Below the pieces are notes generated by a model. It made no database searches. It worked only from the letters and a program-made list of their open reading frames with translations, and had not been told where the DNA came from. A stretch of 64,000 nucleotides of DNA from Planctomycetota bacterium (GTDB lineage: Bacteria > Planctomycetota > Phycisphaerae > UBA1845), in the NCBI GenBank assembly GCA_029558835.1, contig JAKQDH010000069.1, positions 124,001 through 188,000 on the forward strand, in the 5' to 3' direction. Positions 10,630 to 42,291 of the stretch are shown one piece after another (the stretch's first letter is position 1; each line of letters starts with the position of its first letter). The translations under genes were made by a program, and so were the position numbers.

Positions 10630-10812
10630 AAGCGCTCCTTCCCGAATGGCCGTGTATGACCGTGCGAGATTCGCCAACGCCATCGAGCCGCAGGCTTCGG
10701 CCCGCGCGGGGCCGCGCTACGTGACCGTGCGCGAATGTGCAACGGCGGCGTCGCGGGTCATCCGCTCCCTTGCGGTCGCGGTGCGGATCGGCGCCGCCGC
10801 GCGCACGGTTGG

Positions 10813-12489
10813 TCAGTCGCCGCCGCAGCCGGGCCCCAGGTTCCCCTTGAGCAACTCGGATTTCAGCACGTGACTGCCCGCGGTCGCCACGATCTCGTCC
10901 GGCAGCACGCCCACCAGCACCTCGGTGAAACCATCCCCCCGCGCGCCCGGCTGCACCTTCCGCGGGCGGAAGATATCCTCGCCGGCGCGCACGAAGACGA
11001 CGTGGCAGCAGCCCTCCCACTGCACCGCCTCGTCGGGAACCACGATCGCATCCGGTGACTCACCCACGGTGATGAGCGCCCGGCCGAACATCCCCGCCCG
11101 CAGCCGGCCGGCGGGGTTGTCCACGCGGGCACGTACCTTTACCGTCCGCGTCTGGCGGTCCACGGCCGTGCTGATCCAGGACACGGCGCCGCTTGCCTCC
11201 AGTTCGGCGGCGCCGTCGGGAACAAAGCGCACGGGTTGTCCCAGCGCCACGCGTGCCGCCTGGGCCTGTGGCAGGTCGATCATCAACCACATGCCGCTGA
11301 CGTCCGCGATCACAAACAGCGTGCGGGTGGGGTCCGCGAGTTCACCCGCAACGGCCTCCCGCCGGACGACCTCGCCGTCCAACGGAGCCTGGAGGGGCAG
11401 CAGGTTGGCGCTCGTCGCGCCCGCTGCCCACTCGGTGCGCAGTGTCTCGGGCAGCCCCAGGTACAGCAGCGTCTGCGGATCGAGAGCCCCGTCGGCCGGG
11501 TCCGGCGGCAGGATGAAGCCCAGGTTGACAAGCGCCTGGCGTGTGACGAACGCGTCGACTTCCGCCTCGCGCAGCGCGACCTCGGCCTCCTGCAAGTCCG
11601 CGTCCGTGCCGATCCTGCTGGCGTGCAGGCGTCGGGCACGTTCCAGGCTCTGCATGCGCATCTGGCGGCGGGCGGCTGACTGCAACAACTCCGCCTTCAG
11701 CTTCCCCACCTCCGCCGCGTCGATCAGCGCCAGCAACTCGCCCTGGCGCACCCGCTGTCCCACCTCCTTCTCCACCCGGTACACGACGCCCGCCGCTCGG
11801 GACGCGACCTGCGCGAGACGCGTGCGGTCGTAGTCAACCTCGGCATTGGCCTCCAGCACTTCGCGCATGGGCCGCCGGCTCACCGGGGCCAACCGCACGC
11901 CCGCCTTCTCCAGCGTCGCTACGGACGCCAACTGCACGTACTGCGCGTGCGTCTGGCAGGTGGCCGGGTCCTTCCCCACGGCAGACGACAGCGGTGACGT
12001 GGACCGAGAGGCATGCGCGTGGGCTTCGTGGTCGTGGTCCTCCCCGCCGCAGTCGCCGTCCGCCGCTTTCGTCGCCCGCCCTGCCGCCGCCGGCTCGCCT
12101 CCAGCGATCAACCCCGGCCGGCAGATCGTGCAGTTTGACTCGGGCACGCCGTGCTCGCTGCACCAGTCAGCCGGGTCCGCGCCCACAAGCGCGGGGCGGC
12201 AGCGAATGCACTTCGATTCGGGCACCCCATGTTCGGCACACCAGTCCTCGTCGTGCTCGGTGCCGGGGTGCCCGAAGAACTGCCCGAACGCCGGCAGCCG
12301 CCAGTTGTGGTGATGTCCCCAGTAACCCAGACCCACGAGTACGAGCAGCGTGAGCAGCCCGGGGATGCGCTCCAGCACTGCTCGCGTTCGGCTCGTCGCA
12401 TACGCCGACCGGTCGTCCTCTGCGGGTCGCGTTCCCTGCTCAACGCCCCCGGGGCCCACCCCCGGCGCGGAATCTGACAAGCTCTCCAT
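10813..12489 (-). CDS. RND periplasmic adaptor with tandem Cys/His metal-binding repeats
   Basis: This is a 558-residue membrane-fusion protein (CusB/CzcB type) linking the pump to the outer-membrane channel. Residues ~40-57 form one membrane anchor. Two copies of C-x2-H-x6-C-x2-C follow: C84/H87/C94/C97 (CAEHGVPESKCIRC) and C110/H113/C120/C123 (CSEHGVPESNCTIC). Next comes a His/Asp-rich stretch (DHDHEAHAHA, ~151-160). The rest has the barrel-sandwich, hairpin and beta-barrel order of adaptors, with VYRVEKEVGQRVRQGELLAL marking the lipoyl half-motif. The tail ends in a Cys (LGPGCGGD). The Cys repeats are likely to bind soft metal ions and hand them to the pump, as CusB does with Met residues; that role is inferred. 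Start ATG with GAGGGA upstream. Confidence 0.9.
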   Translation of the reverse strand: MESLSDSAPGVGPGGVEQGTRPAEDDRSAYATSRTRAVLERIPGLLTLLVLVGLGYWGHHHNWRLPAFGQFFGHPGTEHDEDWCAEHGVPESKCIRCRPALVGADPADWCSEHGVPESNCTICRPGLIAGGEPAAAGRATKAADGDCGGEDHDHEAHAHASRSTSPLSSAVGKDPATCQTHAQYVQLASVATLEKAGVRLAPVSRRPMREVLEANAEVDYDRTRLAQVASRAAGVVYRVEKEVGQRVRQGELLALIDAAEVGKLKAELLQSAARRQMRMQSLERARRLHASRIGTDADLQEAEVALREAEVDAFVTRQALVNLGFILPPDPADGALDPQTLLYLGLPETLRTEWAAGATSANLLPLQAPLDGEVVRREAVAGELADPTRTLFVIADVSGMWLMIDLPQAQAARVALGQPVRFVPDGAAELEASGAVSWISTAVDRQTRTVKVRARVDNPAGRLRAGMFGRALITVGESPDAIVVPDEAVQWEGCCHVVFVRAGEDIFRPRKVQPGARGDGFTEVLVGVLPDEIVATAGSHVLKSELLKGNLGPGCGGD

Positions 12490-12622
12490 GATGATGTCCC
12501 TCGTTGAAACTCACTTGACTGCCGGCCGGCTCCGCGCGGAGCGGCCAGGCCATGGTTCGGGCGCCAGAACGCAGGCTCACGACGCAAGGCGTGACCTGGC
12601 ACGTGCTGCTACGAGGGAACGA

Positions 12623-13030
12623 TCAGATGAGCAGAGGCAGACTGGTGGTTTCGTGCCCCGGCGCGCCCGCCGCCGACGGCTTGCCCGGCCGGATCGGAGT
12701 CACGCCATCGTCCCCAACCTCTCCGGGTTCCGACAAGGGGAGCGACAGCAGACTCAGGTCAGGCACGCGCGGCGCGGAGCGATCCAACGGCACCGGCACG
12801 GGACGTCCGCACACCAGAGGGCAGGTGTCCTCATTGTGCTGACGCCGGCGCTCGACGGGAGGGGTATGCCGGTCGTCGCAATCGTGGTCCCGGCACCCAG
12901 CCTCTGGGGGGCCGGCTTCTCCGGACACGATGAAACCCTCGCCGCAGCACACCCCACCCATGCCGCTGATGCACAGGGCCGGAGCACCCAGCAAGGTCCA
13001 CAACGTGATGACCACCGCGACTCGACACAT
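12623..13030 (-). CDS. Small secreted Cys/His-rich protein heading the metal efflux operon
   Basis: This is a 135-residue protein with a hydrophobic signal (VAVVITLWTLLGAPALCISG). A short Cys/His/Asp-rich segment follows (GVCCGEGF, CRDHDCDDRH, HNEDTCPLVC), then a Pro/Ser-rich tail without recognisable fold. It is the first gene of the operon, 133 bp before the adaptor. A small exported cysteine protein in this position suggests a periplasmic metal-binding or sensing role, but no known family is recognised. The coding call rests on the signal peptide, operon position and orientation. Confidence 0.6.
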   Translation of the reverse strand: MCRVAVVITLWTLLGAPALCISGMGGVCCGEGFIVSGEAGPPEAGCRDHDCDDRHTPPVERRRQHNEDTCPLVCGRPVPVPLDRSAPRVPDLSLLSLPLSEPGEVGDDGVTPIRPGKPSAAGAPGHETTSLPLLI

Positions 13031-13731
13031 AGCGGCTACATTCTAGCCTCCTCCCGCCTGCGCTTCAACCCGCGCAGTCCTCGCGCGTGCGGGCCTCCGT
13101 GGCCGGGACGTGCCGGTTATCGCCTCCACACATCGCTCCTCGATGGGCCGCCAACATGCTCAAAACCGACAAGAACACACACTGGGCGTCCCGCAGGCCG
13201 GTTCACTGTCCACGGTGTCCGATGTCGGCGTGCCATCACCTCCCGTCGTCACAAGTCAGTAACAACGAGGGCCCCGAAGCGTCTCAGGGGAGGCGACTGT
13301 TGGAGACGAACCCGTTCGGCGGGTACGTCCGCCTCGGGCGGGACGCTCGAGCCACGCGAGCGGACGCGTTCGGCATGTTCGCCGGTAAGAGTCCCATGCT
13401 CGCCCGCGACTGACGTCGCGTACGGGTCCGGCGTTTCGGGTGGGGTGGGTGCCATGTTTTCCCGCGACGGCGGTCGCGGGTGAGCATGCTCCTTCGGCCG
13501 CCGCGCATAACCGCTCTTACCCGTGGCAGGCTGGGGCCCGGCCGCCGGAGGAAGCGGGTGTCGGCGCGCGCTCGGGGACAGCTTCTCGAAGCGCGCCAAT
13601 GACGTTATCAGTCTGGGTGGACCGCGCGCGGGGCGCCGGGTATGATCCGCTCCCCGGCCGCGGAACGCGCGGGACGGTCTGCGCGCACGGAAGCGGCTAC
13701 CTGGAGCTTGCTGTTGGGTGACGCCTCGTAC
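13031..13731. other. Gap between efflux operon and ABC cluster, with repeat debris
   Basis: This 700-bp gap separates divergent units and must hold the promoters of both. It contains a degenerate GGGCGGGACGCTCGAGCCACG repeat (13337-13357) and a diverged copy of palindrome family B (13444-13489). No gene with a convincing start is seen on either strand. Confidence 0.5.
13444..13489. repeat. Palindromic repeat family B, copy 1 (diverged)
   Basis: GGTGGGTGCCATG is followed by TTTTCCCGCGACGGCGGTCGCGGG and GAGCATGC. It is the diverged counterpart of the perfect palindrome at 24661-24696, with several changes in the arms. A partial relative (CCCATGCTCGCCCGCGAC) lies just upstream near 13394. Confidence 0.65.
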
Positions 13732-14664
13732 ATGTTCACCTGTGACCGCCTGCGGAAGTGCTATGCCCGCGTCACCGCGTTGAAGGAGGTGACGGTGGCG
13801 ATCGAGCGCGGCACCGTCGGGCTGCTGGGCCCCAACGGCGCCGGCAAGAGCACGCTCATCAGCGTCCTGCTGGGGCAGACGCCGGCCACCGCCGGCCGGG
13901 CGACCGTGCTGGGGTTCGATGTCCGTCGCCGGCAACTCCGCATCCGCCAGCGCATCGGCTTCATGCCGGAGACCGACTGCTTCATCCCCGGCCTCAGCGG
14001 GACCGGGTACGTCTACTACGCCGGGCGACTGGCGGGCATGCGCCATGCCGATGCCATGCAGCGCGCCCACGAAGTGCTGGATTACGTCGAACTCGGCGAT
14101 GCCCGCTACCGCCCCGTGGAGGAGTACTCCACGGGCATGCGGCAACGTGTCAAGCTCGCCCAGGCCCTGGTTCATGATCCCGAGGTGCTCTTCCTCGACG
14201 AACCCACCAATGGCATGGACCCGCACGGGCGGGAGGTCATGCTGGGTTTGATCGCAGACCTGCACGCCGCGGGCATCAGCGTGCTACTCTCCAGCCATCT
14301 GCTGCCCGACGTCGAGCGGGTCTGCGCGAGCGTCATGATCATGGGGGCGGGTGAAGTGTTAACCACCGGGCGGCTCGCCGATCTGGGCCGCCCGCATCCG
14401 ACGTTGTACACACTGGAATACGCCGGCAACGGCGCTGACCTGCCCGGCGCACTCCAGACCGCCGGGGTGGGCGTGCTTGGTGCGCCGGTCAGTGACAACA
14501 GCGGCCGAGTCAGCATTGCCCTGGAGCTCCCCGCGGCCGGGCGGCAAAGCCTGGTCCTGGAAGCGGCCCAACTGGCGGGCGTCAGGGTCCGTGGGCTGCA
14601 TCCTCAACGCAGCAGCCTCGAAGAGACGTTCCTGGCCGCCATACGGAAGCAGCAACAGCCGTGA
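13732..14664 (+). CDS. ABC transporter ATP-binding protein 1
   Basis: This is a 310-residue ATPase of an ABC-2 type exporter. Motifs in order: Walker A GPNGAGKST, Q-loop region RQRIGFMPETDCF, signature YSTGMRQRVKLAQAL (here STGMR in place of LSGGQ), Walker B VLFLDEPTNGMD, switch His in LLSSHLLPDVERV. The ATG at 13732 begins MFTCDRLRKCYARVTALK, the standard N-terminus. A TTG at 13714, 7 nt after GGAGC, is an alternative start. The stop overlaps the GTG start of the permease by 4 bp, so the two proteins are made together. The substrate is unknown. Confidence 0.9.
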   Translation: MFTCDRLRKCYARVTALKEVTVAIERGTVGLLGPNGAGKSTLISVLLGQTPATAGRATVLGFDVRRRQLRIRQRIGFMPETDCFIPGLSGTGYVYYAGRLAGMRHADAMQRAHEVLDYVELGDARYRPVEEYSTGMRQRVKLAQALVHDPEVLFLDEPTNGMDPHGREVMLGLIADLHAAGISVLLSSHLLPDVERVCASVMIMGAGEVLTTGRLADLGRPHPTLYTLEYAGNGADLPGALQTAGVGVLGAPVSDNSGRVSIALELPAAGRQSLVLEAAQLAGVRVRGLHPQRSSLEETFLAAIRKQQQP

Positions 14665-15668
14665 ACACACTGTCCGCCAACTACCGCCCGCGCTACCATC
14701 GCTGGTCCGGCCACGTGGCGACCGGCTGGTGGACGTTCCTGCCCATCGCCACGGCCGGCATTCGCCACGTTCTCAAGCAGAACAAGACGCGCCTCGCGGT
14801 GACCAGCACTCTGCTGTTTGTCATCGGCAGCGGCGGTCTGTTCTATATGCTGGACTTCGTGGAGCAGCTTGTCGGCACGGAGGAGGCGGAGCCGTGGTAT
14901 GAGATGCTCCGCATGCTGCTGCGGGTCGACTTGAGCAGCTTGGCCCAGTTCCATGAGTACCGCGAAGTTCTCTGGCGGACCATCTTCGTTATCATGATCC
15001 GGTTCGAGTTGTTCTGGGTGCTGATCTTGGGCGGCGCCGTCGGGTCCGGGCTGATCGCCCAGGACCTCAAGGCCCGCGCCCTGCCGATCTACTTCTCCAA
15101 ACCGATTACGCCGATTACGTACCTGCTCGCCAAGTGGATGATCGTGGCGGCGTTTCTCGCTCTGGCGATGCTGGTTCCCAACCTGCTTTCTTTGCTGCTC
15201 GGCGTGCTGTTTGCGGGGGGATTGAGCTCCTGGACGCAGACGCTGGGACTGGCCTGGGACATCCTGCTTTCCGGATCTCTGACGATGGTGCTCGGCGGGA
15301 CGGTGGTGTTGGCGTTGTCCAGCCTGACGGCGGACCGGCGTTATGCGCTGGTGGCGTGGCTGGCGGTGTGTGTGCTGCCGATGACGGCCCAGGGCGTGTT
15401 GGGCCAGGTGTTGCCCCCTGAGGTGATGGGGGGTTGGCTCGGCAGCATATCGCTGAGCGGCGATTTCATGATGGTGACGGAGCGACTGTTCGACCTGCGG
15501 CAGGCGTGGCAGGCGACGGAGCTGCCTTCGGACGCGTTTGCCGCGGCGCTGGGCAGAGGCATCCCGGTGCGCTACCCGGCCCTCGTGCTGCTGGGGGTTA
15601 CCGTAGCCTCCATCTGGCTCTGTTATCGTCGCGTGGTTCGTTTCTCGCGGTCGGCCGCGAATCTGTGA
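14661..15668 (+). CDS. ABC-2 type permease 1
   Basis: This is a 335-residue inner-membrane protein with about six hydrophobic segments (near residues 40-60, 110-135, 155-185, 195-225, 230-250 and 300-325). The start is a GTG overlapping the upstream ATPase stop. KARALPIYFSKPITPITYL is the cytoplasmic segment typical of ABC-2 permeases that follow GldA-like ATPases. It forms the transmembrane half of the first ABC exporter; the transported molecule is not readable. Confidence 0.85.
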   Translation: MNTLSANYRPRYHRWSGHVATGWWTFLPIATAGIRHVLKQNKTRLAVTSTLLFVIGSGGLFYMLDFVEQLVGTEEAEPWYEMLRMLLRVDLSSLAQFHEYREVLWRTIFVIMIRFELFWVLILGGAVGSGLIAQDLKARALPIYFSKPITPITYLLAKWMIVAAFLALAMLVPNLLSLLLGVLFAGGLSSWTQTLGLAWDILLSGSLTMVLGGTVVLALSSLTADRRYALVAWLAVCVLPMTAQGVLGQVLPPEVMGGWLGSISLSGDFMMVTERLFDLRQAWQATELPSDAFAAALGRGIPVRYPALVLLGVTVASIWLCYRRVVRFSRSAANL

Positions 15669-28562: not shown

Positions 28563-31500
28563 TCAGGGCAACGGAACGCCTGCCGACGGGGAATCGCTGC
28601 CCTTGTCTCCGGGTCGAGCGGCAGCATCCGCTTCCGGAGGTGGCGCCGGCGCGGGCTCACCCTCGGGAAGGGAGGTGTCCGGTGCCGTCGGCGCATCGCC
28701 AGCGTCCCAACCGGGTACTGCCGATGGCTTTGGAGCCTCGCCGGGCGCGCCTGCCGTCAACTTCTCCGCCAGGGCGGCCAACGGCGCGCAGTCGGGCAGC
28801 TTGGCACCGGCAACGTCCAGGAACGCGGCGGCATCCTGTGGGGGCAGTCCATAGCGCAGGGCCTGCTCAAGGTGGTCGGCGGCCGCGGTGCAATCCGCGC
28901 GACCTACGGCCAGGTCCGCGGCCAGGAAGTGCCCCAGGGGATCCTGGGGGGCGAGTTCCAATCCGCGCGCGACCCACTGCGGGAAGCGTTCCGGCAGCGT
29001 GCTGGGTGGAACGCGCAGCCCTTCCTTTCGTCGCTGCAGGAGCTGGTAGCACATCCGCGCGTAGCTGACGCCCAGCTCACGCTGAACCTGCTCCGCCGGG
29101 CGGGACGCGCCCAGCAGTTCGTGCAGTTGTCGGCGGGCTTCGGCTTCGTTGTCGGCGGCCAGCTCGTAAGTGACCACGCGCTGCTGCACGGCGCGGCGCA
29201 GGCGACGTCCATCCTGCGAACTGGGTGTCAACTCCAGAGCGCGATGGGCCGCGGTCAGGGCGCGCTGCGGGTCCGTCGGGTCGGCATGGAAGCGGCAGTC
29301 GGCCAACTCGAACCAGGCCGCGGCCGCTCCGTAGGGAGCCGTGGCGGCCAAACGATCATAGACGGGGGCGGTCTGTTCAAGCACCTCCGCGGCCCCGGCG
29401 TAATCGCCCTGCCAGAAGCGCAGGGTGGCCGCCAGCCTGAGCTTCTCCGGCGCCCAGCGATCAGGCCCGGCGGTGTCCGGTCGGGGTGGGGAAACGGCTC
29501 GGTCAGCGGGGACAGCCGGGGACTCGAGCTCCGGCGCCGGTGGCGCCGACGTTCCCTCGGGCGGGGCGGCGATGAACATGTTCCCCAAGGCCGCTTGTGC
29601 CTGCGCCACCAGCCCTTCAAACTCATCCTCAAACGTGGGCTCGCTCGCCAGCGCCAGCAGGGTCTGCACGACCGGCAAGGTGATGCTGTGGTGGCGCAGT
29701 GGGCGCGCCATGATGTCCAGCACGAGCGCCGGTTCAACTTCGGCAAAAGCCAACTGCACGTAGGCGAGCGACAGCTCGGGATTGTAGGGCTGCCGCTGCA
29801 ACTCGCGGTCGAGTGCCAGCCGGGCGCCGGCGAGCAGGAGCTCACGTTCACCCGGCGCGTTGCGGGCGGTGGGGTTGTCCGCCTGGGTGACCAGCAGGAG
29901 ATACTCGAGGTAGCCCTGGTTCAAGTACGTGGGCGCGCGGGATACCACTTCCTTGAGCACCTTGCTGCCTTCCTTGCAGTGTTCCTCGCTGGCGGAATAG
30001 TCCTGAGCGGCGAGCAGGAGCAGCTTCTCGTCGGGGGGGTCGGTCTGCTGCGCGCGCTGTCGACGGTCGGAGGCGCGTGCCTGAAGCTGCCGGGCGCTGC
30101 GGGCGTGGGCCTCGCCTAAGCGGAAGAGGTTGCTCAAAGCCCGTTGGGGGTTGAGTTGGTGCCGCGCGGTTTCCGCCAGCTTGATCGCCTGCTCATACTT
30201 GTCGTTCTGGAGGGCATCCTCGACCGAGTAGGTGGCCCGAGCGGCGGCGAAGTCCTGCTGCGCCAGCCACAGCGCGGCGAGGGCGGCCGTCACGGCGACC
30301 ACGCCGCCCCCGGCGCGCCCGCCGGGGTGTCTCACCAGCCAGGCTACCAGCCCCCCGCGCTCCGGTCGGGAGAACGCCCAGATCAGACCCAGCACGGTGT
30401 AGAACATGGGCGGCACGTCGGAGACGCGCAGGCCGACGTCGAACATTTCTTCCACGACCATTCCGACCAAAGCGGCCAGAAGTGCCACCAGCAGCCAGCG
30501 CCCCTCCCTGCCATCCGGCAAGCCCGGCGGTGGGCGTCGATCTTGCAGAGCGGCCATCCCCGCCCGAAGGGTCAGCAGGATCACGCCGGCCACCAGCACG
30601 AGCCCGACCGCTCCCAAGTCCGCGAGCACTTCGAGCCACTCGTTATGGGCGTGGGCCAGACGGGCCACGAAGGGCAGCGGGTCCTCGAGCACGTCGTCGA
30701 TGACGAAGCCGTCGCCCGCCAGTACGAAGCCGCCCTGCCCGTGTCCCTTCAGCGGTGCCTGCTCGAACATCCGCCACGCATACGACCAGGCATAGAGGCG
30801 GAGGCGCGCGGTAGCATCTCGTCCCGTGGGGGAGGCCACGTCGGTCTGAGCGCTGAGCAGGGCCGCTCCCGCCACGCCCGCCACGACCGCCAGCCCCACC
30901 GGTACCGCCCGCCACCATCCCCGCAAAGCAAAGAATGCCGCCGCCAACAAGGCGAACACCAGTCCTGCCTGGGCCCCGCGTGAGTCCGCGAGGATGAAGG
31001 CCCAGATGCCCAGCACCAGTGTCGCAGCGCTGACGACCAGTGCCGTCCCCTCGCGCGCGGGGTGCAGCCGCAGGGCCGTGCGGAACCTTACCCACCAGGT
31101 GTGACCGTCCCCGATGAGCAGGACGGTTTCGTTTCCCTCGACGCGTCCGCGGACCGTCTCCACGAACCATGCCCCGGCCACCAGGAGGCCCGGAAGCAGG
31201 GCGGCCGCCAGGAACAGAGGGTTCCCGAACGGGAACTTCGCCCGCAGCACTGGGTTGCGTTCATAGTAGTACCAGAGCGCGACCGCCGACGTGACGGCCG
31301 TGATGATGACGACGGCGCGGGCGGCCACGCGTGCACCGCGGGGGTTGAGACCCAGCCCCAGTGCCAGCGCCCAAGCGTATTGCAGGGCGAGCAGGATGGT
31401 TCCGCCGCGGGCAAGCTCGGGGGCCGCAGACCAGCGGCTGCTGGCCAGCGACCACAGCAGGTAGAGGACCACCAGTACCTGCGCGGCGTACAGCGGGGCG

Positions 31501-31916
31501 ATGTGCCGTTTTCGGTCGAGGGTAAGGGGGTCGGTTGGTTCGCCGTCGCCGGCTTCCACGGCGGTCTCGCCGACCGGTTTGCCGGTGGCCAGCGCGATGG
31601 CCAGCACCGCCAGAGCCAGGGCGGTTCCGAGGTTGAGGACGAGCACCTTGACTTCGCCCGCGTACAGGGTCGGCGCCCGGTAGTTGAGGCAGAGCACGGC
31701 GACGACGGCCTCCAGGGTGGAGCCGGGCGACCACTCCCGAGCTCCGTCGACGAGTTGCTCGGAGCGGGGCGCGCTGAGCAACAGGCAACAGCCGGCCAGC
31801 GTGAGGGCGACGATGGCCAGGAGCACGACCTGATAGGGCTGCAAGCCCTCCGACTCACGGATGCGTACGACACCGGGCATAGCAGACGACCGCGGGAAAG
31901 CGTGGCAGCGCCGCAT
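28563..31916 (-). CDS. O-antigen ligase-like membrane protein with TPR domain
   Basis: This is a 1117-residue protein. The N-terminal half (~20-560) has about 12-14 membrane segments and the O-antigen ligase/Wzy_C-type region ending AHNEWLEVLADLGAVGLVLV. Proteins of this family ligate or polymerise polysaccharide units on the periplasmic side. The C-terminal half (~570-1060) is helical with TPR-like pairs (EKLRLAATLRFWQGDYAGAA; AADHLEQALRYGLPPQDAAA). It ends in a Pro/Ala/Glu-rich low-complexity tail. The start at 31916 is 3 nt after the adenosyltransferase stop; an ATG at 31880 (MPGVVRIRESEGLQ) is a plausible alternative. The exact substrate cannot be read. Confidence 0.82.
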   Translation of the reverse strand: MRRCHAFPRSSAMPGVVRIRESEGLQPYQVVLLAIVALTLAGCCLLLSAPRSEQLVDGAREWSPGSTLEAVVAVLCLNYRAPTLYAGEVKVLVLNLGTALALAVLAIALATGKPVGETAVEAGDGEPTDPLTLDRKRHIAPLYAAQVLVVLYLLWSLASSRWSAAPELARGGTILLALQYAWALALGLGLNPRGARVAARAVVIITAVTSAVALWYYYERNPVLRAKFPFGNPLFLAAALLPGLLVAGAWFVETVRGRVEGNETVLLIGDGHTWWVRFRTALRLHPAREGTALVVSAATLVLGIWAFILADSRGAQAGLVFALLAAAFFALRGWWRAVPVGLAVVAGVAGAALLSAQTDVASPTGRDATARLRLYAWSYAWRMFEQAPLKGHGQGGFVLAGDGFVIDDVLEDPLPFVARLAHAHNEWLEVLADLGAVGLVLVAGVILLTLRAGMAALQDRRPPPGLPDGREGRWLLVALLAALVGMVVEEMFDVGLRVSDVPPMFYTVLGLIWAFSRPERGGLVAWLVRHPGGRAGGGVVAVTAALAALWLAQQDFAAARATYSVEDALQNDKYEQAIKLAETARHQLNPQRALSNLFRLGEAHARSARQLQARASDRRQRAQQTDPPDEKLLLLAAQDYSASEEHCKEGSKVLKEVVSRAPTYLNQGYLEYLLLVTQADNPTARNAPGERELLLAGARLALDRELQRQPYNPELSLAYVQLAFAEVEPALVLDIMARPLRHHSITLPVVQTLLALASEPTFEDEFEGLVAQAQAALGNMFIAAPPEGTSAPPAPELESPAVPADRAVSPPRPDTAGPDRWAPEKLRLAATLRFWQGDYAGAAEVLEQTAPVYDRLAATAPYGAAAAWFELADCRFHADPTDPQRALTAAHRALELTPSSQDGRRLRRAVQQRVVTYELAADNEAEARRQLHELLGASRPAEQVQRELGVSYARMCYQLLQRRKEGLRVPPSTLPERFPQWVARGLELAPQDPLGHFLAADLAVGRADCTAAADHLEQALRYGLPPQDAAAFLDVAGAKLPDCAPLAALAEKLTAGAPGEAPKPSAVPGWDAGDAPTAPDTSLPEGEPAPAPPPEADAAARPGDKGSDSPSAGVPLP

Positions 31917-32716: not shown

Positions 32717-35700
32717 TTACCGCCGCCACTTCCGGCAGCGCGTCCCGACCAGCATCAGGAACGTCAGCGGCCAGATGATCATCCCGGTAGCGCCGCAGAA
32801 CCTGGTGTTCGGCGTACCGGCGATCCGCTGGAACCGGGCGATGACGGTCGTGTCATCGTAGACGGTCACGGTAATGGGGTTGTCGGTACCGTCGACGTCG
32901 CCGTCCCAGCCGACGAACTCGTAGCCGTCCTCGGGCACGGCGGTCAGGGTGGTGGTCCCGCCCGGCTCGAACTCATTGGTAAGTTCGGCCGGCATGACGA
33001 CGCGCCCGCCGCGTACCGGCTCGACGACGATCGAGAGTTGGTACAGCAGCGTCTGGGCGGGTGCCATCATCGCGGTGATCTGCATGTCACTGTTGACAGT
33101 CACCGTCAGGGTCGAGCGGGTGCTGGAAGCACTGCCGACCCAGCGCTCGAAGCTGTAGCCCGTCTTCGGCACGACGGTGAGGGTCACCCGCGTGCCCGCG
33201 TCGTAGTAGTCGCGGTTCGGCGACATCACGACATCCGCCGCACCGATCGGGTCGACGGCCACGACGAGCCGGTACTGATTGACCGTCTGCACGAACCGGG
33301 CCGCGAGGGACTTGGACTCGTCCATGGTCACGGTGATGCGGGTCGTGGTGGCGGTGACGTCGCCGGACCAGCCGGCGAACTCATAACCGTTGGCCGGCAC
33401 GGCCGTCAGGGTCACGACCGTTCCCTCCAGGTACTCGTCCTGGTCAGGAGAGACGGTCACGGTGCCACCGTTCTCGCCGTCGATGGTCAGCGCGAGCGAG
33501 TAGTAGTATTGCACTTCGCCGAACTCGGCGACGAGGCTGCGGGCAGCGTCCATGGTGACGGTCAGTTGCGGGTCGCCGGCGTCGGCCTGCGCCACATCTC
33601 CCGACCAACCGAGGAACTCATAGCCACTGGCCGGCGTTGCGGTCAGGCTAACCGTCATTCCCTCTGAGTAAACACTGAGGGACGGTGCCGTCGTGACCGA
33701 GCCGCCCGCCTCCGGGGATGCGGAGGTGTCCAAGGTGTAGGCGTTCACCTCTCCGGCGGCGAAGATGGAGAAGTGGTCCACGGTCGCCCAGACGACGGTC
33801 CGGCCGGCGGAATCAGTGTAAACGCCGTAGTCACCGACGGTACCGGTGGGCGTGCTCTGCCCGCGGTTGTTCCAGCCCGCCAGGGTCCAGGTTTGGGTGG
33901 GCTGGTCGTAGACGTACAGGCCGACTTGCTCACCCGACACGTCCGCGGTGGCGAGGTCGGAGGCGGTGAGGATGAGCCGTACCACGGCCTCGAACGTCCC
34001 GTCCTCAGCCGAACTGGTGAGGGTGAGCGTGCGCGGGACGGCGTTGCCTGCGCCGTTGCCGCCGACCATGCCTGCGGTGGTGCCGACGGAGTTGCCGTCC
34101 TCGAGCGTCGCCGAGACTTCGGCGCCGGCGGTCAATCCGCTGACGGAGACCCGGGCCGAGGTGCCGGAGGGCGTCTCCATCGAGACGGTCGCGGTGCCGC
34201 TGCTGCTGGCGACGGCGTTCGCAGCGTCGGTGGCGAACTGGTCGTCCTGTTCCGGCTCGTTGTCGTTCTCATTGGCATTGTCGTTGGCGGGCGGAGTGTA
34301 GCCGCCGCCACCGGCAGGGCCTGGGCACCCGTTCATCCAGTTGTTGGTGCCGGTGCCGAGGTCCACGTTCGTCAGCGTGATGCTGTCGCCCGTGGCACCG
34401 CAACCGCTGTTGCTGGCGTAGGTGCAGCGGGAGACGCTGGTGTGATCGAAGGTGAGGTTGTCCGAGGCACCCCGGTTGATGGTGAAGGTGCCGGTGTCGC
34501 CGACGGTGTCGAGGATGACCTCCTGCCCGTCGGTGTTGCTGCCCAGCGTCAGCGTGGCGTTGCCCGTCAGGGTCACCGTCGAGCCGGGTTGGAAGTCGAT
34601 CTTGCCTTCGGTCACCGTATAGATCAGCGAGCCGGTGGTGTTGATGTTGACGCTGCCCATCTGATAGATGAACGCGCCGGCCAGCGTGTAGTCGCTGTTC
34701 GTGCCGGCGATGTTGATGGTCCCGTCCCACTCAAAGTCGTTGTTCTGCGCGATGGTCAGAGTCTTGCCGGCGCTGGCATTGAGATTGAGCGTACCGGTGG
34801 CGCCCACGCTGAAGTTGGTGTTGCCGCCGGCGACGCCGGTGATCGCGCCGAAGGTGGTCAGGGTGGCGCCGTTGGCGACGTCGACGGAGTTGGCGTCATC
34901 CCCGAAGGTCAGGTTCACGGCGGCGTCGCCACCGCCGGCCACGCCGACGACCACCGTGCCGGTGTCGATGTCCAGGTCCACGTTGGCGTTGTCCAGCCCG
35001 AAGCCGCCCGTGAGCGTCAGGGTACCCGCGCCGGTCTTCTGCACCGTGTTACCGGCGTCCGGCGTCAGCTTACTCGTGACGGCCAGGTTGCCGGTGGTGG
35101 TGAAGAGCAGGGTGCCGGACCCCGCCCAGGTGGGCGTGAAGGTGGTGATGGTAGGAGTGACCCCCGTGGACACGGTGATTGTCCGCGTGGCGCTGTCGGG
35201 GACGGTGATGGTGAGCGTGTCGAGCGTCCCCCCGCCACTCAGGGTCAGGTTGTTGGTGTCGGCGGCAAAGGTATGGCTCCAGGTCTGCCCGGTGGCGATG
35301 TCCAGGGTCCCGGCCGCGCTGACGTTGAGCGACGAGACGGTAATGTCACCGTCGTCCACGTCGAGCGTGAAGGCGGCCGTGTCGAGTGTCACCTCGTCGA
35401 TGGTGCCGTCGCCGGAGACGGTGAGCGTGTTGGCGCCCACGTCGAACCCGTCATCGGTGCCGTTGTTGTTGGTGAAGCTGAGGGTCTTGGTGGCGGCCAC
35501 GTCCACCGCCAGGGTGGCTCCGACCGTCATGTCATTCGTGATCGTGAAATCGTCGTCGATATTGAGGCTGCCGCTGGCAGTCTGCGTCAGCGTGGTGATG
35601 ACGCCGTTGGCGGTGGTGTTCACCGCGCCACCCGCGCCGTCGATGTCCACCTTGCTCACCGTACCCGTGCCGCTGAGGGTCAGGGTGCTGGTGTTTGTGT

Positions 35701-38700
35701 CGACACCGTTGGCTATGGTCATCGTTTCGCCGTTGGCGACGTCGACCGTGAGGGCGGCGTTGGCGTCCACCGTGCCGCTGAAGGTCGTCGTGTTGTCGAT
35801 GTCGATGATGCCGCCGGCGGTATCGCCGGTGACGGCGCCACCGACCACCATGGCGGTCGTGGCGTCGCCGCTGACCTCGAGCTCCGCGGCCGCCCCGTTG
35901 AGGCTCAGGCCGCCGGTGAAGGTCAGGGTGTCGGCGTTGGCGTCGTCGGTGCCGGTGAACTTGAGCACGGCGCCGGCGTCGACGTTCACGGCGCTGGCGA
36001 TCGTCAGCGTACAGGTGTCGGCGCTGGAGTCGCACTCGATCGTGCAACTGTCGTCAAGTTCCAGGTCGGTGAGGGTGTTGGTCTTGGTGTTGAGGTCGAT
36101 GATGGTCGCTGACGTGTTCGATGCGGAAGTGATCGTGCCGGCGATGGCCATCGTCCCGCTCACGTCGGTGGTCAGCGCCAGCTCGGAGGCATTGCCGGCG
36201 AGGCTCAAGCCTCCGGTCAGCGTCAGGGTCTTGGTGTTGGCGGCGTTCTCACCCTTGTAGGTGAGGATTACCCCCGCGGGCACGGAGACGGCGTTGGTGA
36301 TGGTCAGGTTCTTGGTGCCGGCCACGTCGAGCGTGAAGCCTTCGGTCGCGGCCAGACTGCTCAGCGTGAGCGTGCCGACCGTGCAACTCTCGTTCACGTC
36401 GAGCGTGCCGCCGGTGGTGCCGGTGGTCACCGTCGAGACGGTCCCGGTGCCGTCGAGGGTGAGGGTATTGTCGTGAATGTTGACGGTCGTGGTGCACGTC
36501 TTGACGCCGGCGACCGTCATGGTCAGCGTGGAGGCGGCGGTGGCCGTCTGGGTGATCGAGGCCGGGCTGCACGTCTCGTTGATGTCGATGTTGGGCGACA
36601 CCGCGCCGCTGACGGTGACCTTGAAACCGGTCAGGTCGTCGGCGGCCGCCGTCTCGGCGACGGTGAGATTCGAGCCGTTGTTGTTCAGCACGATGCCGTT
36701 GGCGCCACTGGTGGTGAAGGTCTCCTGGGCACCCCCACCCGAGCCGGTCAGCGTCAGGGTGTTGGCGCCGACGTTGAAGTTGTTGGTCACCGTCAGGTTG
36801 ACGCCGTTGCCGAACGTGATGCCCAGGTTGCCGCCGAGGCTCAGCGTGGTGATCGTGGCGTTGGCATTGGCGGTGATGGTGCCGAGGGCCGTGGTGGTCA
36901 GGGTCGTCACCGTACCGGCCGCGCTGAAGGCCACGCTGCCGGCCGCGCCGTCGAGGTCCACCGCGCTCACCGTGCCGGTGCCGGGTAGGGTCAGGGTGTT
37001 GGTCTGCGTATCGATGCCGTCGCTCGCGGTGAGCGTCTTGGTGGGCGCCACGTCCACGATGGCGCTGGCGGTCAGATCAAACGTGCCGCTGACCGTGCAC
37101 GTCGCATTCACGTCGAGCGTGGCGCCGGCGCCCGAGATGACCACATTGGTGAGCTGGCCGGTTTCATCGACCAGCAGCGTGCCGCCCGCCCCACTGAGGG
37201 TGATGGTGCCGCCCAGGGTGGCCCCGTTGTGCAGGGTGGCCGAGCCGGTGGTCAGCGTCGCGTTCAGGGCAGTGATCGTTTTTGCGGTGTTGAGGTCGAC
37301 CACGCCGCTGGCCGAGTTCAGCGTGACCGACGACAGAGTGCCGGCCCCCGCCTCGGCGATCAACAACGTGTTGTTGTTGACGGTAATGGGGCCCGCAAAG
37401 GTCTTGGCGCCGACTTGCAGGGTCAGGTCGCCGGTGTCGGCGGTCATGGCCACGGCCGTGAAGTTGGTGTTGATGTCCGTGTCGATGGTGGCGTTGTCCG
37501 CGCTGACGTTGACGGTCAGGCCGCCGATGTTGTCGGCGTCCGCGCCGGTGACCGCGATGCTCGACGAGCCGCTCGTCATGTTCACGGTGGCGGTGAGAGT
37601 CTCCGCTCCGCCGGCACCGGAACCGACGATCGACATCGTGTACGCGCCCAGCGTGATCGGGTTGGTCACGGTGAGGGCCTTGGTGTCAACGTCGAGGTCG
37701 ATCGTGCTGTTGGACGTGAAGGTCAGCGTCGTGATCGTGCCACTGGCGTTCACGTCGAGCGTGCCGCCGGCGGTGTCCATGGTGACGGCGCTGACCGTCC
37801 CCACGTCGTTGAGCGTGAGCATGTTGGCGTCGATGTCGAAGGTCCCGGTAATCGTCGTACCGACGGCCGGCTCCAGGGTCAGGTTGCCGGCGATGGTGCC
37901 CATGGTTACCGTGCAGCTTGCGTCGGCGTCAATGATGCCGCCGTTGCTGTCCACCTCGATGCCGGTGCCCTGCACGGCCGCCGTGACGAAGTTGATCTCC
38001 CCGCCGCTGAGCACGATCTCCGCGTCGAAGGTCTCCGTGCCGCCGCCCGCGTTGCCCGTTACGGTGAGCACGTCGCCGGTGCTCATCGTGATGGCGTTGT
38101 TGTTGTCGACGGTGACGGTGACATCCTGTCCGATCGTGACGCCGAAGTCACCCTGGGGGACGATCTGCGTCAGTGCCGTCGTCATGCCGAAGGTCAGCTT
38201 GGTGTTGGCGCTATTGCCACCGATGTAAATGGTGTCCAGCGTGCAGGAGGTGATGTTGGCGCTGGACACGGTCAGCCCGTGGTCGGCGAGGAACCAGTTG
38301 TTGGCCAGCACGCCGGCGCCATAGTCGGCCACGTTGACCGGAGTGCTACCGGCGGTGGCGGTGATGGTGATGGCCGTGTTGGTGTTGGCGGTCGCCTGGA
38401 AGCCGGCCGAGGCGTTGGTGCCTGCCACACGCAGCACCGACGTGGCCGAGCCGTAGGTGATGGTGCCGGCCGTGGCGCCGTCACCGATCTTGAACTTGTT
38501 GCCAAAGGCAAGGAAGTCAATGGTGACGGTCGAGCCCGCCCCGATGGTGAAGTTGGCGATCTTGGGCGAGTTGGCGTCCATCTGAATGGTGATGCTGATG
38601 CTGGGGTCGACGGTCAGGTCATCACTGTCGGTGAAGCCGCCGTCCACCCAGTTCTGCATCGAGTAGGTGCCGCTGGAGGCTGGGTTCGGGTCGGCTGCCC

Positions 38701-38833
38701 AGGCCGTCGGTGCCCCCAGCACCAGGACCAGCCCCGCCAGAAGCAGCGGCAGCAACTGCACAGTATCCCCACGGTTCGGGATCCGGAAACTACGCCCGCA
38801 AAGCAGGCGAGACGGCATCGGGTGCGACCTCAT
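32717..38833 (-). CDS. Giant secreted beta-repeat protein with InlB-type repeats and C-terminal anchor
   Basis: This is a protein of about 2038 residues. The ATG at 38833 was chosen because AGGAG lies 8 nt upstream. A signal peptide spans ~1-46 (LLPLLLAGLVLVLGAPTAWA). Residues ~50-1500 are Thr/Asp/Gly/Val-rich irregular repeats (units like TLTLSGTGTVSKVDIDGAGG) with hardly any charged or aromatic residues, likely a long beta-helix or beta-solenoid as in adhesins. An Asn/Asp/Glu linker (NDNANENDNEPEQDD) follows, then a ~150-residue domain with SVSGLTAGAEVSATL, then four InlB-like repeats (GYEFLGWSGDV, GYEFAGWSGDV, GYSFERWVGSA, GYEFVGWDGDV). The C-terminus has FCGATGM, a hydrophobic stretch and RCRKWRR. 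This resembles PEP-CTERM/MYXO-CTERM-style sorting tails with a Cys-Gly motif. It is probably displayed on the cell surface; binding partner unknown. Confidence 0.85.
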   Translation of the reverse strand: MRSHPMPSRLLCGRSFRIPNRGDTVQLLPLLLAGLVLVLGAPTAWAADPNPASSGTYSMQNWVDGGFTDSDDLTVDPSISITIQMDANSPKIANFTIGAGSTVTIDFLAFGNKFKIGDGATAGTITYGSATSVLRVAGTNASAGFQATANTNTAITITATAGSTPVNVADYGAGVLANNWFLADHGLTVSSANITSCTLDTIYIGGNSANTKLTFGMTTALTQIVPQGDFGVTIGQDVTVTVDNNNAITMSTGDVLTVTGNAGGGTETFDAEIVLSGGEINFVTAAVQGTGIEVDSNGGIIDADASCTVTMGTIAGNLTLEPAVGTTITGTFDIDANMLTLNDVGTVSAVTMDTAGGTLDVNASGTITTLTFTSNSTIDLDVDTKALTVTNPITLGAYTMSIVGSGAGGAETLTATVNMTSGSSSIAVTGADADNIGGLTVNVSADNATIDTDINTNFTAVAMTADTGDLTLQVGAKTFAGPITVNNNTLLIAEAGAGTLSSVTLNSASGVVDLNTAKTITALNATLTTGSATLHNGATLGGTITLSGAGGTLLVDETGQLTNVVISGAGATLDVNATCTVSGTFDLTASAIVDVAPTKTLTASDGIDTQTNTLTLPGTGTVSAVDLDGAAGSVAFSAAGTVTTLTTTALGTITANANATITTLSLGGNLGITFGNGVNLTVTNNFNVGANTLTLTGSGGGAQETFTTSGANGIVLNNNGSNLTVAETAAADDLTGFKVTVSGAVSPNIDINETCSPASITQTATAASTLTMTVAGVKTCTTTVNIHDNTLTLDGTGTVSTVTTGTTGGTLDVNESCTVGTLTLSSLAATEGFTLDVAGTKNLTITNAVSVPAGVILTYKGENAANTKTLTLTGGLSLAGNASELALTTDVSGTMAIAGTITSASNTSATIIDLNTKTNTLTDLELDDSCTIECDSSADTCTLTIASAVNVDAGAVLKFTGTDDANADTLTFTGGLSLNGAAAELEVSGDATTAMVVGGAVTGDTAGGIIDIDNTTTFSGTVDANAALTVDVANGETMTIANGVDTNTSTLTLSGTGTVSKVDIDGAGGAVNTTANGVITTLTQTASGSLNIDDDFTITNDMTVGATLAVDVAATKTLSFTNNNGTDDGFDVGANTLTVSGDGTIDEVTLDTAAFTLDVDDGDITVSSLNVSAAGTLDIATGQTWSHTFAADTNNLTLSGGGTLDTLTITVPDSATRTITVSTGVTPTITTFTPTWAGSGTLLFTTTGNLAVTSKLTPDAGNTVQKTGAGTLTLTGGFGLDNANVDLDIDTGTVVVGVAGGGDAAVNLTFGDDANSVDVANGATLTTFGAITGVAGGNTNFSVGATGTLNLNASAGKTLTIAQNNDFEWDGTINIAGTNSDYTLAGAFIYQMGSVNINTTGSLIYTVTEGKIDFQPGSTVTLTGNATLTLGSNTDGQEVILDTVGDTGTFTINRGASDNLTFDHTSVSRCTYASNSGCGATGDSITLTNVDLGTGTNNWMNGCPGPAGGGGYTPPANDNANENDNEPEQDDQFATDAANAVASSSGTATVSMETPSGTSARVSVSGLTAGAEVSATLEDGNSVGTTAGMVGGNGAGNAVPRTLTLTSSAEDGTFEAVVRLILTASDLATADVSGEQVGLYVYDQPTQTWTLAGWNNRGQSTPTGTVGDYGVYTDSAGRTVVWATVDHFSIFAAGEVNAYTLDTSASPEAGGSVTTAPSLSVYSEGMTVSLTATPASGYEFLGWSGDVAQADAGDPQLTVTMDAARSLVAEFGEVQYYYSLALTIDGENGGTVTVSPDQDEYLEGTVVTLTAVPANGYEFAGWSGDVTATTTRITVTMDESKSLAARFVQTVNQYRLVVAVDPIGAADVVMSPNRDYYDAGTRVTLTVVPKTGYSFERWVGSASSTRSTLTVTVNSDMQITAMMAPAQTLLYQLSIVVEPVRGGRVVMPAELTNEFEPGGTTTLTAVPEDGYEFVGWDGDVDGTDNPITVTVYDDTTVIARFQRIAGTPNTRFCGATGMIIWPLTFLMLVGTRCRKWRR

Positions 38834-39288: not shown

Positions 39289-42159
39289 TCAGGGATGCGG
39301 GGGTGCCTGGGGTACGGGCTCGCGGTACGGCTGCCGGGTCCGGTAATGTTCTGCGCGCTCGCGGATGAGGAGCGCCAGGTCCTGTAATCCGTCCTGCTCG
39401 GCACGCGTCGCGGCCTGCCGGGCTACCGCGGCGGCCTGCTCCCACTCCCCGGTGGCGGCCAGGGCGGCCGCCTGCACATCGAGCGTCTGGGGACTCGGAC
39501 TCGGTTGGTTCGCCAGAACGTCCACCAGGCGCCAAGCGGCGGCACCGTCGCGCACCGTATCGTCCGCAGTGGTCGCCAGCAGCCACGCGAGTTCCAGCCT
39601 GGCCGTGCCGTCATTGTTCGCGTTCTGTACCGCCTGACGCAACACGGCCACGGCGGCCGGGACGTCGCCCAGCGCGTAGAGGATGCCCGCCAGCTCGCTG
39701 TACCGGTCGGCCGGACGCGGATCTTGAGCAATGAGGTGGTTCAGAGCGACGGCCCGACGATAAGGGCCGCGCAGTAGCTCCTGAAGCCGGTTCAGCTCCT
39801 GTTGGGCCTTTGTGTAGTTGGGATCGAGATACAGCGCCTGCTCAAAGCAGGCAGCCGCGTCGTCTCCGCGTCCCAGACGCCGCAGGATGAGGCCCAGGTT
39901 GTAGTGAGCCTGGGGAAGACCGGGGGCATTGCGGACGGTACGCGTGAGCCAATCGAGGGCGGCATCGAGCCGGCCTTGCTCCGCCTGGCGGATGGCGTAA
40001 TCACCGCTGGCGATCGGGTTGTCGGGGTCGAGGGTGACGGCCTGCGTAAGATGCGGCTCTCCCTCGTTGGCCCTGCCTTGGTTCGACAAGGCCAGCCACA
40101 GGCCCAGGTGGGCGGGGGCGCTCGTCGGGTCGAGGGTGACCGCTTGCCGAAAGGCCGTCTCCGCCGACGCCCAGTTGCGGCGGGCGACCTCCAGCTTGCC
40201 GAGGCTCCGCCATGCCTCCGGTGCCTCGGGGAAGAGCTCCACGAACTGGGCGCAGACAACGTCGGCCTCGTCGAACCGTCGCAGTTGTACGAGGGTCTCG
40301 ACCACCGCGGCCCGCACGTCCGCTCGCTGAGGCGCCAGCATGCTCGCCTGCGTGAAGCGCGCCAGGGCTTCCTCGTACTGTCCGACTTGCTGATAGACCT
40401 TTCCTATGTTCTGCTCGTGCCAGACGCGGTAGTCCTCCAGCAGGTCGAAGCCCAGGGCCCTGTTAACCGGACCGCCCGCCGGCCCGGCGACAGTCAGGGC
40501 CAGCACGAGACCCACGGCCCACGCCTGGCGGCCGGCGCCTGCATGCGATGCTCCGCTTTCCGGTGTGGCCTGGTAGGAAGCGCAGGCCTGCGCCGCGCGG
40601 ATCGCGGCCGCGGCGACCGCCACGGTCAGCAGCGGGATGACCGGCAGGCGATACCGCGGCGAATACCAGAACGCGGCGACGATCACCAGCGGCAGCACCA
40701 GCGATGCCACGTCCATCAGGTTGAACACCCGCCGCCGACAGGTGAGCAGCAATCCCGCGACGGCCGGGCCGAACAACCAGGCCGTGGGTATCGGCGTCAG
40801 TCCCAGCCACGGCAGCAGGCCGTCGCGGCGCTCCCAGGTCAGATGATCGTAGTCGTAGTAGTTGCGTCCGGTGAGGCACCAGTACGCCTTGCGGCAGGTG
40901 AGCCAGGCGGCGCGGCGCCAGTCCGAAGCCAGGTAGTCAACCCCGCGGTCGAAGAAGAAGCGATCGATCCGGCGGTACGAGCCCGCGTGGCCGGTGGCCT
41001 GGGCGTACACGCGGGCGGCGTCGGCGTGCATGCGACCGCGCAGGTTGCTGACGCCCTCGATCGGCGTGTAGCCGCCGTCCGCTCCGGGCGCGTTGCCCTG
41101 ATTGAAAGTAATGCCGGCGTGGGCCGTGATGGGGATGAGTTCACCGCAGGCGAGGTAGTTGTGCAGCGTGGCGAGCAGGACCGGCGCCAAGCCGGCCCCC
41201 AGTGTGATCAGTCCGTACAGCAGCCCCTTCGAGCTGCTCCCGTGACCCCCCTCCCTTCCAGGGAGGGGGCGGGGGAGAGTCGAGTCATCGCCGGCCACCC
41301 CCTCACCCTGCCCTCTCCCCCAAGGGGGAGAGGGATTCTGTCCGGCCGAGCCGGCGGGAAGCGCTGATGCGGCGGGCGACGCTGTGCCCGTGGGCGGCGC
41401 AGATGCGGCGGGTGGCGCGGAGCCGATCGGCAGTGCAGAGCCGTGGGGCAACGCCGCTGCGGTTGGCGGTGCGGCAGCGCGGGCACGGCTTCTCTCCTGC
41501 CGCAACGCCTGCCGCCGGCACCACAGCGGCAGCAGCAGCACCAGCAGCAGCGCCGGCGGGTAGACCAGCGTCAGCAGTCCGGCGAGCAACCCCAGCAGCG
41601 CCGCCCGTCCGCGGCGGGCCTCCTGGGCAACGTGGTCCGCCGCCAGCAGCAGCAGCGCGACCAGCAGCAGTTGCACGGTGCTGGGCATCACGCGCAGGGT
41701 GAAGAAGGCCGGCTCCTCCAGCAACAGGAAGACGATCAGTGCCACTATCCCGGCACTTCGTCCGAGCTTGCGTGCCGCCAGATACGCCAGCAACGCGGCC
41801 GTCAACAAGTGCAGCGCGATCTGCACCCCGTACACCGCCCGCAACCCGCCTCCCCAGAGCCGGATTACTCCCAACAGGTACGGGTAGAGCGGCACGGACA
41901 GAAACGGCTCGTCGCCCACCCACCGGCCGTCGGCGATCCGCTCGGCCTGTTCCCAGTAGACGCGGGCATCGTTCTGCGGGGCGAGCGCGATCGGATGACG
42001 GTGCAGGTAGTCAACCAGCAGCAGTATGCGTGCTCCCAGAGCGACGGCGATGAGGCCGCCAGCCAGCAGCAGATAGCGCCGTCGCGCGCGGAGCCCATCC
42101 TTTGGATCAGACCCGCCATTCGGCCGGGCGGCGGTCCGAGTGGGCTCCTGGTGCTCCAT
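39289..42159 (-). CDS. GT-C family glycosyltransferase-like membrane protein with TPR domain
   Basis: This is a protein of about 956 residues. The N-terminal ~560 residues have about 10 membrane segments. The first extracytoplasmic loop is typical of GT-C (PMT/ArnT, GT39-like) enzymes: DARVYWEQAERIADGRWVGD and PLYPYLLGVIRLWGG. These use lipid-linked sugars. The C-terminal ~380 residues form TPR-like helix pairs (YNLGLILRRLGRGDDAAACF). Between two membrane helices lies an Ala/Pro-rich cytoplasmic segment plus a translated palindromic repeat (41247-41334). The ATG at 42159 was preferred; a GTG at 42264 with GAGGG upstream adds 35 residues of poorer codon usage. It lies downstream of the adaptor gene at 42292. 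Confidence 0.78.
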   Translation of the reverse strand: MEHQEPTRTAARPNGGSDPKDGLRARRRYLLLAGGLIAVALGARILLLVDYLHRHPIALAPQNDARVYWEQAERIADGRWVGDEPFLSVPLYPYLLGVIRLWGGGLRAVYGVQIALHLLTAALLAYLAARKLGRSAGIVALIVFLLLEEPAFFTLRVMPSTVQLLLVALLLLAADHVAQEARRGRAALLGLLAGLLTLVYPPALLLVLLLPLWCRRQALRQERSRARAAAPPTAAALPHGSALPIGSAPPAASAPPTGTASPAASALPAGSAGQNPSPPWGRGQGEGVAGDDSTLPRPLPGREGGHGSSSKGLLYGLITLGAGLAPVLLATLHNYLACGELIPITAHAGITFNQGNAPGADGGYTPIEGVSNLRGRMHADAARVYAQATGHAGSYRRIDRFFFDRGVDYLASDWRRAAWLTCRKAYWCLTGRNYYDYDHLTWERRDGLLPWLGLTPIPTAWLFGPAVAGLLLTCRRRVFNLMDVASLVLPLVIVAAFWYSPRYRLPVIPLLTVAVAAAAIRAAQACASYQATPESGASHAGAGRQAWAVGLVLALTVAGPAGGPVNRALGFDLLEDYRVWHEQNIGKVYQQVGQYEEALARFTQASMLAPQRADVRAAVVETLVQLRRFDEADVVCAQFVELFPEAPEAWRSLGKLEVARRNWASAETAFRQAVTLDPTSAPAHLGLWLALSNQGRANEGEPHLTQAVTLDPDNPIASGDYAIRQAEQGRLDAALDWLTRTVRNAPGLPQAHYNLGLILRRLGRGDDAAACFEQALYLDPNYTKAQQELNRLQELLRGPYRRAVALNHLIAQDPRPADRYSELAGILYALGDVPAAVAVLRQAVQNANNDGTARLELAWLLATTADDTVRDGAAAWRLVDVLANQPSPSPQTLDVQAAALAATGEWEQAAAVARQAATRAEQDGLQDLALLIRERAEHYRTRQPYREPVPQAPPHP
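41247..41334. repeat. Palindromic repeat translated inside the glycosyltransferase gene
   Basis: Two perfect hairpins lie inside the coding sequence: CCCCCTCCC-TTCCA-GGGAGGGGG (41247-41269) and CCCTCTCCCCC-AA-GGGGGAGAGGG (41311-41334). They encode SPPWGRGQGEG and LPRPLPGREGG in frame. This type of PLPGREG/SPPWGRG-coding repeat is known mostly from intergenic DNA of many bacteria. It follows a degenerate Ala/Pro/Ser tandem repeat (SAPPAASAPPTGTASPAASA). Confidence 0.8.
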
Positions 42160-42291
42160 GGTCGAGAAGCTTACCGCAGAACCACGCGCGTGGGCAGGGG
42201 AACGACCGACGGTCCTTCGGAGTAGCCATTCGAGGTTGCGGCGCAGATTCAGGTACGGTTGCACCCTGAGGCGCCCTCGACGCTGCGGAGC

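Follow-up and report, generated by a model that had tools for sequence, protein, structure and literature searches.

C-terminal sorting signals reveal the surface proteins of unculturable bacteria. Those built around an invariant cysteine (MYXO-, JDVT-, Synerg- and CGP-CTERM) pair with proteases of the CPBP/Rce1 family, and CGP-CTERM is served by archaeomyxosortase MrtA. Models for MrtA and for MrtS (Synerg-CTERM) are held in NCBIfam. In Myxococcus, cleavage of MYXO-CTERM by the CPBP protease MrtX and the need for conserved Cys residues have been shown experimentally, and the CPBP enzymes MrtX, MrtC and MrtJ serve MYXO- and JDVT-CTERM (PMC11980579). Here we describe a Cys-Gly C-terminal tail of planctomycetes, carried by a giant protein that is encoded in a 64,000-nucleotide stretch of DNA (the whole stretch analyzed, hereafter the window). 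An order-wide tag without an NCBIfam model would let the planctomycete surface proteome be read from genomes, and it would extend the cysteine/CPBP sorting principle of MYXO-CTERM and its relatives into Planctomycetota, beside exosortases. It would also supply natural pairs for asking whether Cys lipidation precedes cleavage, the open step of the myxosortase model (PMC11980579).

Architecture of the giant protein

The features of the giant gene are listed in Table 1. An AGGAG motif lies about 8 nt upstream of the ATG, and an alternative in-frame TTG start would yield a protein of 2072 aa. We interpret the large plus-strand ORFs that overlap this high-GC gene as its shadows. The signal peptide (MRSHP...LLLAGLVLVLGAPTAWA/ADPN) terminates in AWA/ADPN and has a hydrophobic core of 2.9 on the Kyte-Doolittle scale over 12 residues.

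Table 1. Features of the giant-protein gene, in window positions
Feature	Position	Strand	Basis or remarks
Giant-protein ORF	38833-32717	minus	ATG at 38833, stop at 32717, 2038 aa
Sec signal peptide, residues 1-46 (MRSHPMPSRLLCGRSFRIPNRGDTVQLLPLLLAGLVLVLGAPTAWA)	38696..38833	minus	Translation, hydrophobic core, A-x-A at end
Thr/Gly/Asp-rich repeats, residues 47-1480, predicted parallel beta-helix/solenoid	34394..38695	minus	Composition, model of residues 47-646, Foldseek, VIA-align
Low-complexity Asn/Asp/Glu linker (YTPPANDNANENDNEPEQDDQ), residues ~1502-1545	34200..34330	minus	Translation
Four divergent InlB B-repeats (Flg_new_2, PF18998), residues ~1703-2001	32831..33727	minus	Pfam, 1.6e-44
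C-terminal sorting-type tail (FCGATGMIIWPLTFLMLVGTRCRKWRR): Cys-Gly motif, hydrophobic helix, basic end	32720..32800	minus	Residues 2012-2038; other-genome profile

Per 100 aa, the repeat region (residues ~47 to 1480) contains 15 to 27 Thr, 8 to 17 Gly, 4 to 15 Asp/Glu and 0 to 3 Lys/Arg, and it is also rich in Asn. An AlphaFold2 model, run from a single sequence for residues 47 to 646 only, was regular and all-beta at moderate confidence (mean pLDDT, 63.6; pTM, 0.63). When this model was submitted to Foldseek, nothing was retrieved at an E value of ≤0.001 (best E ≥ 0.0096); nearly all of the leading chains were parallel beta-helices. VIA-align placed the model on parallel beta-helices with Z scores of 13 to 18 (maximum, 17.9) over 250 to 320 residues, its partners being TibA, Ag43b (antigen 43b), PL6 lyases and tailspikes. 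A search of the full giant protein against the sequences of solved structures gave no match. The InlB B-repeats were recognized by PF18998 in four stretches, at 150.2 bits against a gathering score of 23.6, and by the NCBIfam model List_Bact_rpt (2.2e-7), while Pfam and NCBIfam scans did not recognize the tail.

Most of what the preliminary description had claimed for this locus was borne out. The ORF encodes a giant protein with a predicted Sec signal peptide, four InlB-like repeats and, at residues 2012 to 2038, exactly the tail that had been read (FCGATGM, a hydrophobic stretch and RCRKWRR). The suggested beta-solenoid-like fold agrees with the model of residues 47 to 646, and no cognate enzyme was found among the window proteins scanned, as had been stated. 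The repeats had been called charge-poor Thr/Asp/Gly repeats; their Thr/Gly/Asp composition and scarcity of Lys and Arg uphold this, but the region is moderately acidic rather than charge-free.

O-antigen ligase-like and PMT-like plus TPR genes lie near the giant gene (window positions 28563 to 31916 and 39289 to 42264, minus strand). Their products are glycosyl-polymer enzymes of the membrane whose C-terminal regions are long, and they point to surface polysaccharide or glycoprotein work.

The Cys-Gly tail family and its distribution

When the last 68 residues of the giant protein were compared with 40 related genomes by tblastn, the C-termini of other, unrelated proteins were matched, among them GICGAVGAVCFPLTMLTLLGMRRREWRER and FCGSAPLLAVLVGVVSLIRGRRRRIR, and profiles built from those tails pulled in dozens more. 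The consensus is xCG[A/S]xG, followed by about 15 hydrophobic residues (often LPLTxLGL) and then an Arg cluster. Across the alignments the Cys was invariant and the Gly nearly so, with a few members of family f6 keeping the Cys and not the Gly; a doubled CGxCG occurred in at least nine tails. Some of the tail collections had been filtered for Cys by script, and the in-order matches removed in this way, printed later, also carry the Cys. At the DNA level, a degenerate pattern for the tail motif was far too unspecific and matched fewer sites than its reversed control. The Cys-Gly sequence pattern is real and common to many proteins, and its cargo consists of large extracellular proteins bearing signal peptides.

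Two loci in other genomes showed unusual arrangements. At one (L309; G029:C1:218001-237000), five consecutive secreted-type ORFs at 6567 to 11980 on the plus strand form a tandem cluster in which all carry Cys-Gly tails, four of the five being the variant CGCGA. At the other (L342; G232:C7), a second hydrophobic stretch, MPMTMPLALLGLVTFRRRRTS, continues in frame after the tail CGACGAGVPLMMPLALFALYATTRRR, as would result from duplication of the tail or loss of a stop.

We then scored tails in the giant protein's own genome (G000). Because circularity was to be avoided, the profile was rebuilt without own-genome sequences, from 37 tails that all came from other genomes, and applied to the last 45 residues of 2,960 ORFs in 584 kb of the 5.69-Mb genome. 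This sample comprised sequence on the window contig and regions chosen around matches, and the result is therefore a test of membership and not a census. The top eight of the 2,960 ORF tails were eight tail carriers, namely, the giant protein and seven others, and rank nine was taken by a PEP-CTERM protein. No shuffled tail out of 59,200 reached the scores of six carriers, and one and three, respectively, reached those of the remaining two. The tail of the giant protein scored 27.0 bits (tail alone, without composition correction), a value attained by 0 of the 59,200 shuffled tails; in a default full-length HMMER search with the other-genome profile, the giant protein did not reach an E value of 1. 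These scores bear on the proposal that the tail has the three-part form of a sorting signal with a Cys-Gly motif, which had been staked on other proteins of the genome sharing it: at least seven further carriers were found (at least eight in all), and the proposal stands.

The seven comprise a GDSL lipase with TSP3 (C121), a papain-family protease with TSP3 (C99), a protein with RHS repeats, InlB repeats and DUF7619 whose N-terminus is cut by the contig end (C146), a DUF7619 protein (C54), and proteins of 1446 aa (C120), 395 aa (C87) and 209 aa (C187). The own-genome carriers whose N-terminus was read, namely, the giant protein and those on C121, C54, C87 and C187, all start with a signal peptide. 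The RHS protein (L296, positions 9489 to 14906, minus strand) ends in a CGACGSG tail; to our knowledge, a C-terminal sorting tail on RHS proteins is unusual. On C187 (L297; G000:C187:22001-42000, positions 9080 to 10830, minus strand), a PEP-CTERM gene adjoins a Cys-Gly-tail gene, placing two sorting signals side by side. At least six contigs of this assembly (C25, C31, C50, C58, C59 and C60) carry the same 14-mer at bases 87 to 100, and its constant position at contig starts suggests a shared repeat at contig ends.

To delimit the tail, genomes were drawn at two taxonomic ranks. Of 149 genomes drawn across the phylum, the own genome and two genomes of family f22 (G152 and G168) had clear tails, and all other positives were single weak matches. 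The f22 tails read CGAG, and Gly is abundant ahead of the Cys (GGGGGCGAGG). When 160 genomes were drawn across the class, 25 genomes of the own order were positive; among the approximately 135 class genomes outside it there were two positives, both single weak matches that were not tails when read. Apparently, every in-order genome drawn is tail-positive, since the negatives, when sorted by kinship, begin with genomes of other orders. The tail is a probable order-specific signal within Phycisphaerae-type Planctomycetota. Our literature search found no paper linking such tags with planctomycetes that names this tag, although one in a subscription journal could have been missed.

Candidate proteases and rival explanations

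The Cys-Gly tail very probably acts as a C-terminal sorting signal. The known invariant-Cys signals are linked to CPBP proteins, which makes CPBP/Rce1 the best-supported enzyme class here, and on this analogy we lean towards processing of the tail by a CPBP protease. We also favor, if slightly, the whole explanation, in which the tail would be an invariant-Cys, MYXO-CTERM-like surface-sorting signal with CPBP/Rce1-type cleavage and a lipid anchor. The giant protein would be exported by Sec via its predicted N-terminal signal peptide, and its C-terminal hydrophobic helix would, judging from the tripartite form, stall it in the inner membrane with the Arg cluster inside. The invariant Cys would probably receive a lipid, and the helix would be removed by a glutamic intramembrane protease of the CPBP/Rce1 type, acting like MrtX. 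By the same analogy, the beta-helix/InlB protein would be left lipid-anchored at the cell surface, likely as an adhesin or scaffold.

The own genome encodes six CPBP proteins. For a CPBP tree, we took the genes of 13 genomes of the order, two of f22 and six class genomes without tails; two groups in this tree were class-wide. The groups of the CPBP loci L056 and L054 were rejected as cognate, and are not specific, because tail-less class genomes have them too. The clade of a 294-aa CPBP protein (G000:C139:75732-76613), our candidate protease, had a single member in 12 of the 13 order genomes and in none of the six tail-less ones (support, 99/92), and the family's Glu-Glu, Arg and His motif residues are retained in it. 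When GTDB species genomes were scanned, every match at E ≤ 1e-30 fell in MAGs of Planctomycetota/Phycisphaerae. The clade is absent from one order genome with tails (G001) and from both f22 genomes with their CGAG tails. Its own-genome member reached 26 of 100 bits with Mrt_core, below another own CPBP protein from a class-wide group, and did no better than other CPBPs with the myxosortase models. No linkage was found between genes of this clade and tail genes; in family f1, the conserved neighbors of the clade gene include a helicase-like gene. The shared distribution of clade and tail reflects essentially one evolutionary event. We put the clade forward only tentatively as the best candidate protease for the Cys-Gly tail.

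Another own-genome protein (G000:C18:143584-144492; L057, P0003) is CPBP-like, with AEHFLYQG replacing EExxxR, and resembles archaeal MrtA (6e-11). Part of the family has homologues of it, and some genomes have two. Because only 15 of 64 genomes carry a homologue and many genomes with tails have none, it was rejected as the cognate enzyme.

The preliminary description had suggested an exosortase- or rhombosortase-like system and a search for its protease; that search returned the six candidate CPBP proteins and three exosortase-type proteins and no rhomboid, and the class named was probably the wrong one. An exosortase might still read the tail as a divergent relative of PEP-CTERM: beside its three exosortase-type proteins, the own genome has ordinary PEP-CTERM proteins, its tail gene on C99 lies about 4 kb from an exosortase, the pair on C187 joins both tags, and genome G004 has a tail gene about 5 kb away from a CAAX protease of the PEP-CTERM type. 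However, exosortases were present in the tail-less class genomes (one to three each) and were not detected at E ≤ 1e-4 in tail-bearing G031 (94% complete) and G168 (91% complete). They were rejected as cognate on this count, and because of these two genomes, and given the CPBP link of the known invariant-Cys signals, we regard an exosortase as unlikely. Processing by a rhomboid serine protease of the rhombosortase type is far less probable, despite the resemblance of the Gly-rich f22 variant to GlyGly-CTERM. A PF01694 search of the own genome (91.35% complete) gave no rhomboid match at E ≤ 1e-4, which disfavors such an enzyme, and nearly all other genomes tested have rhomboids with or without tails, so that rhomboids, too, were rejected. 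The GlyGly-CTERM model matched one of 25 tails, at an E value of 1.6.

The tail could instead be a plain membrane anchor, with a stop-transfer helix, a positive-inside Arg cluster and a Cys-Gly motif that serves packing or a disulfide, and no proteolysis would follow. By sequence, which is how the tail is known, a tripartite signal is hard to tell from a plain anchor. Against this stands an unvarying Cys whose spacing from the helix is the same across dozens of otherwise unrelated proteins of one order only, a pattern expected of a recognized signal and unlike that of generic anchors; we therefore consider a plain anchor improbable. As for the preferred reading of a processed sorting signal, it is possible, though we hold this with less than even confidence, that the CG[A/S]xG tag and the CPBP clade typified by the C139 protein make up a sorting system of their own, order-wide and parallel to PEP-CTERM/exosortase. 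The f22 lineage would then stand apart, pairing its GGCGAGG variant with another protease.

Comparison with known C-terminal signals

GlyGly-CTERM, the rhombosortase signal, resembles the Cys-Gly tail in the Gly of its motif, its helix and its Arg end, but the Cys-Gly tail has an invariant Cys and its own genome lacks a detectable rhomboid. PEP-CTERM is alike in overall architecture and coexists with the Cys-Gly tail in the own genome; unlike PEP-CTERM, the Cys-Gly tail has an invariant Cys and no Pro-Glu-Pro, and it is found in genomes without a detectable exosortase. CGP-CTERM of Thermococci likewise places a Cys-Gly motif where the helix starts, yet it and MrtA belong to another domain of life, and the MrtA-like CPBP protein of the own genome reached 42.9 of 200 bits.

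The known kind of signal closest to the Cys-Gly tail is MYXO-CTERM. Both are tripartite C-termini with an invariant Cys, a hydrophobic helix and an Arg-rich end on signal-peptide proteins, both have several secreted carriers in each genome, hydrolases and TSP3/adhesin-type proteins among them, and both occur where CPBP proteins are present. The doubled CGxCG also recalls the GCGC motif of MYXO-CTERM (PMC11980579). They differ in the motif, CG[A/S]xG, and in the carriers, which here are Planctomycetota. The giant protein's tail matched none of the CTERM models, including TIGR03901, TIGR03382 and TIGR02595. When 10 tails were run against the MYXO-CTERM models, one exceeded the TIGR03382 cutoff (19.5 versus 15.85), another reached 15.8 and none exceeded that of TIGR03901; most tails score below the curated cutoffs. 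Likewise, none of the six own CPBP proteins reached a myxosortase cutoff, the best scores being 32.2 of 100 bits for Mrt_core, 23.8 of 250 for MrtP and 22.3 of 195 for MrtC. The Cys-Gly tail is thus most like MYXO-CTERM, yet it lies outside the MYXO-CTERM models and in another phylum.
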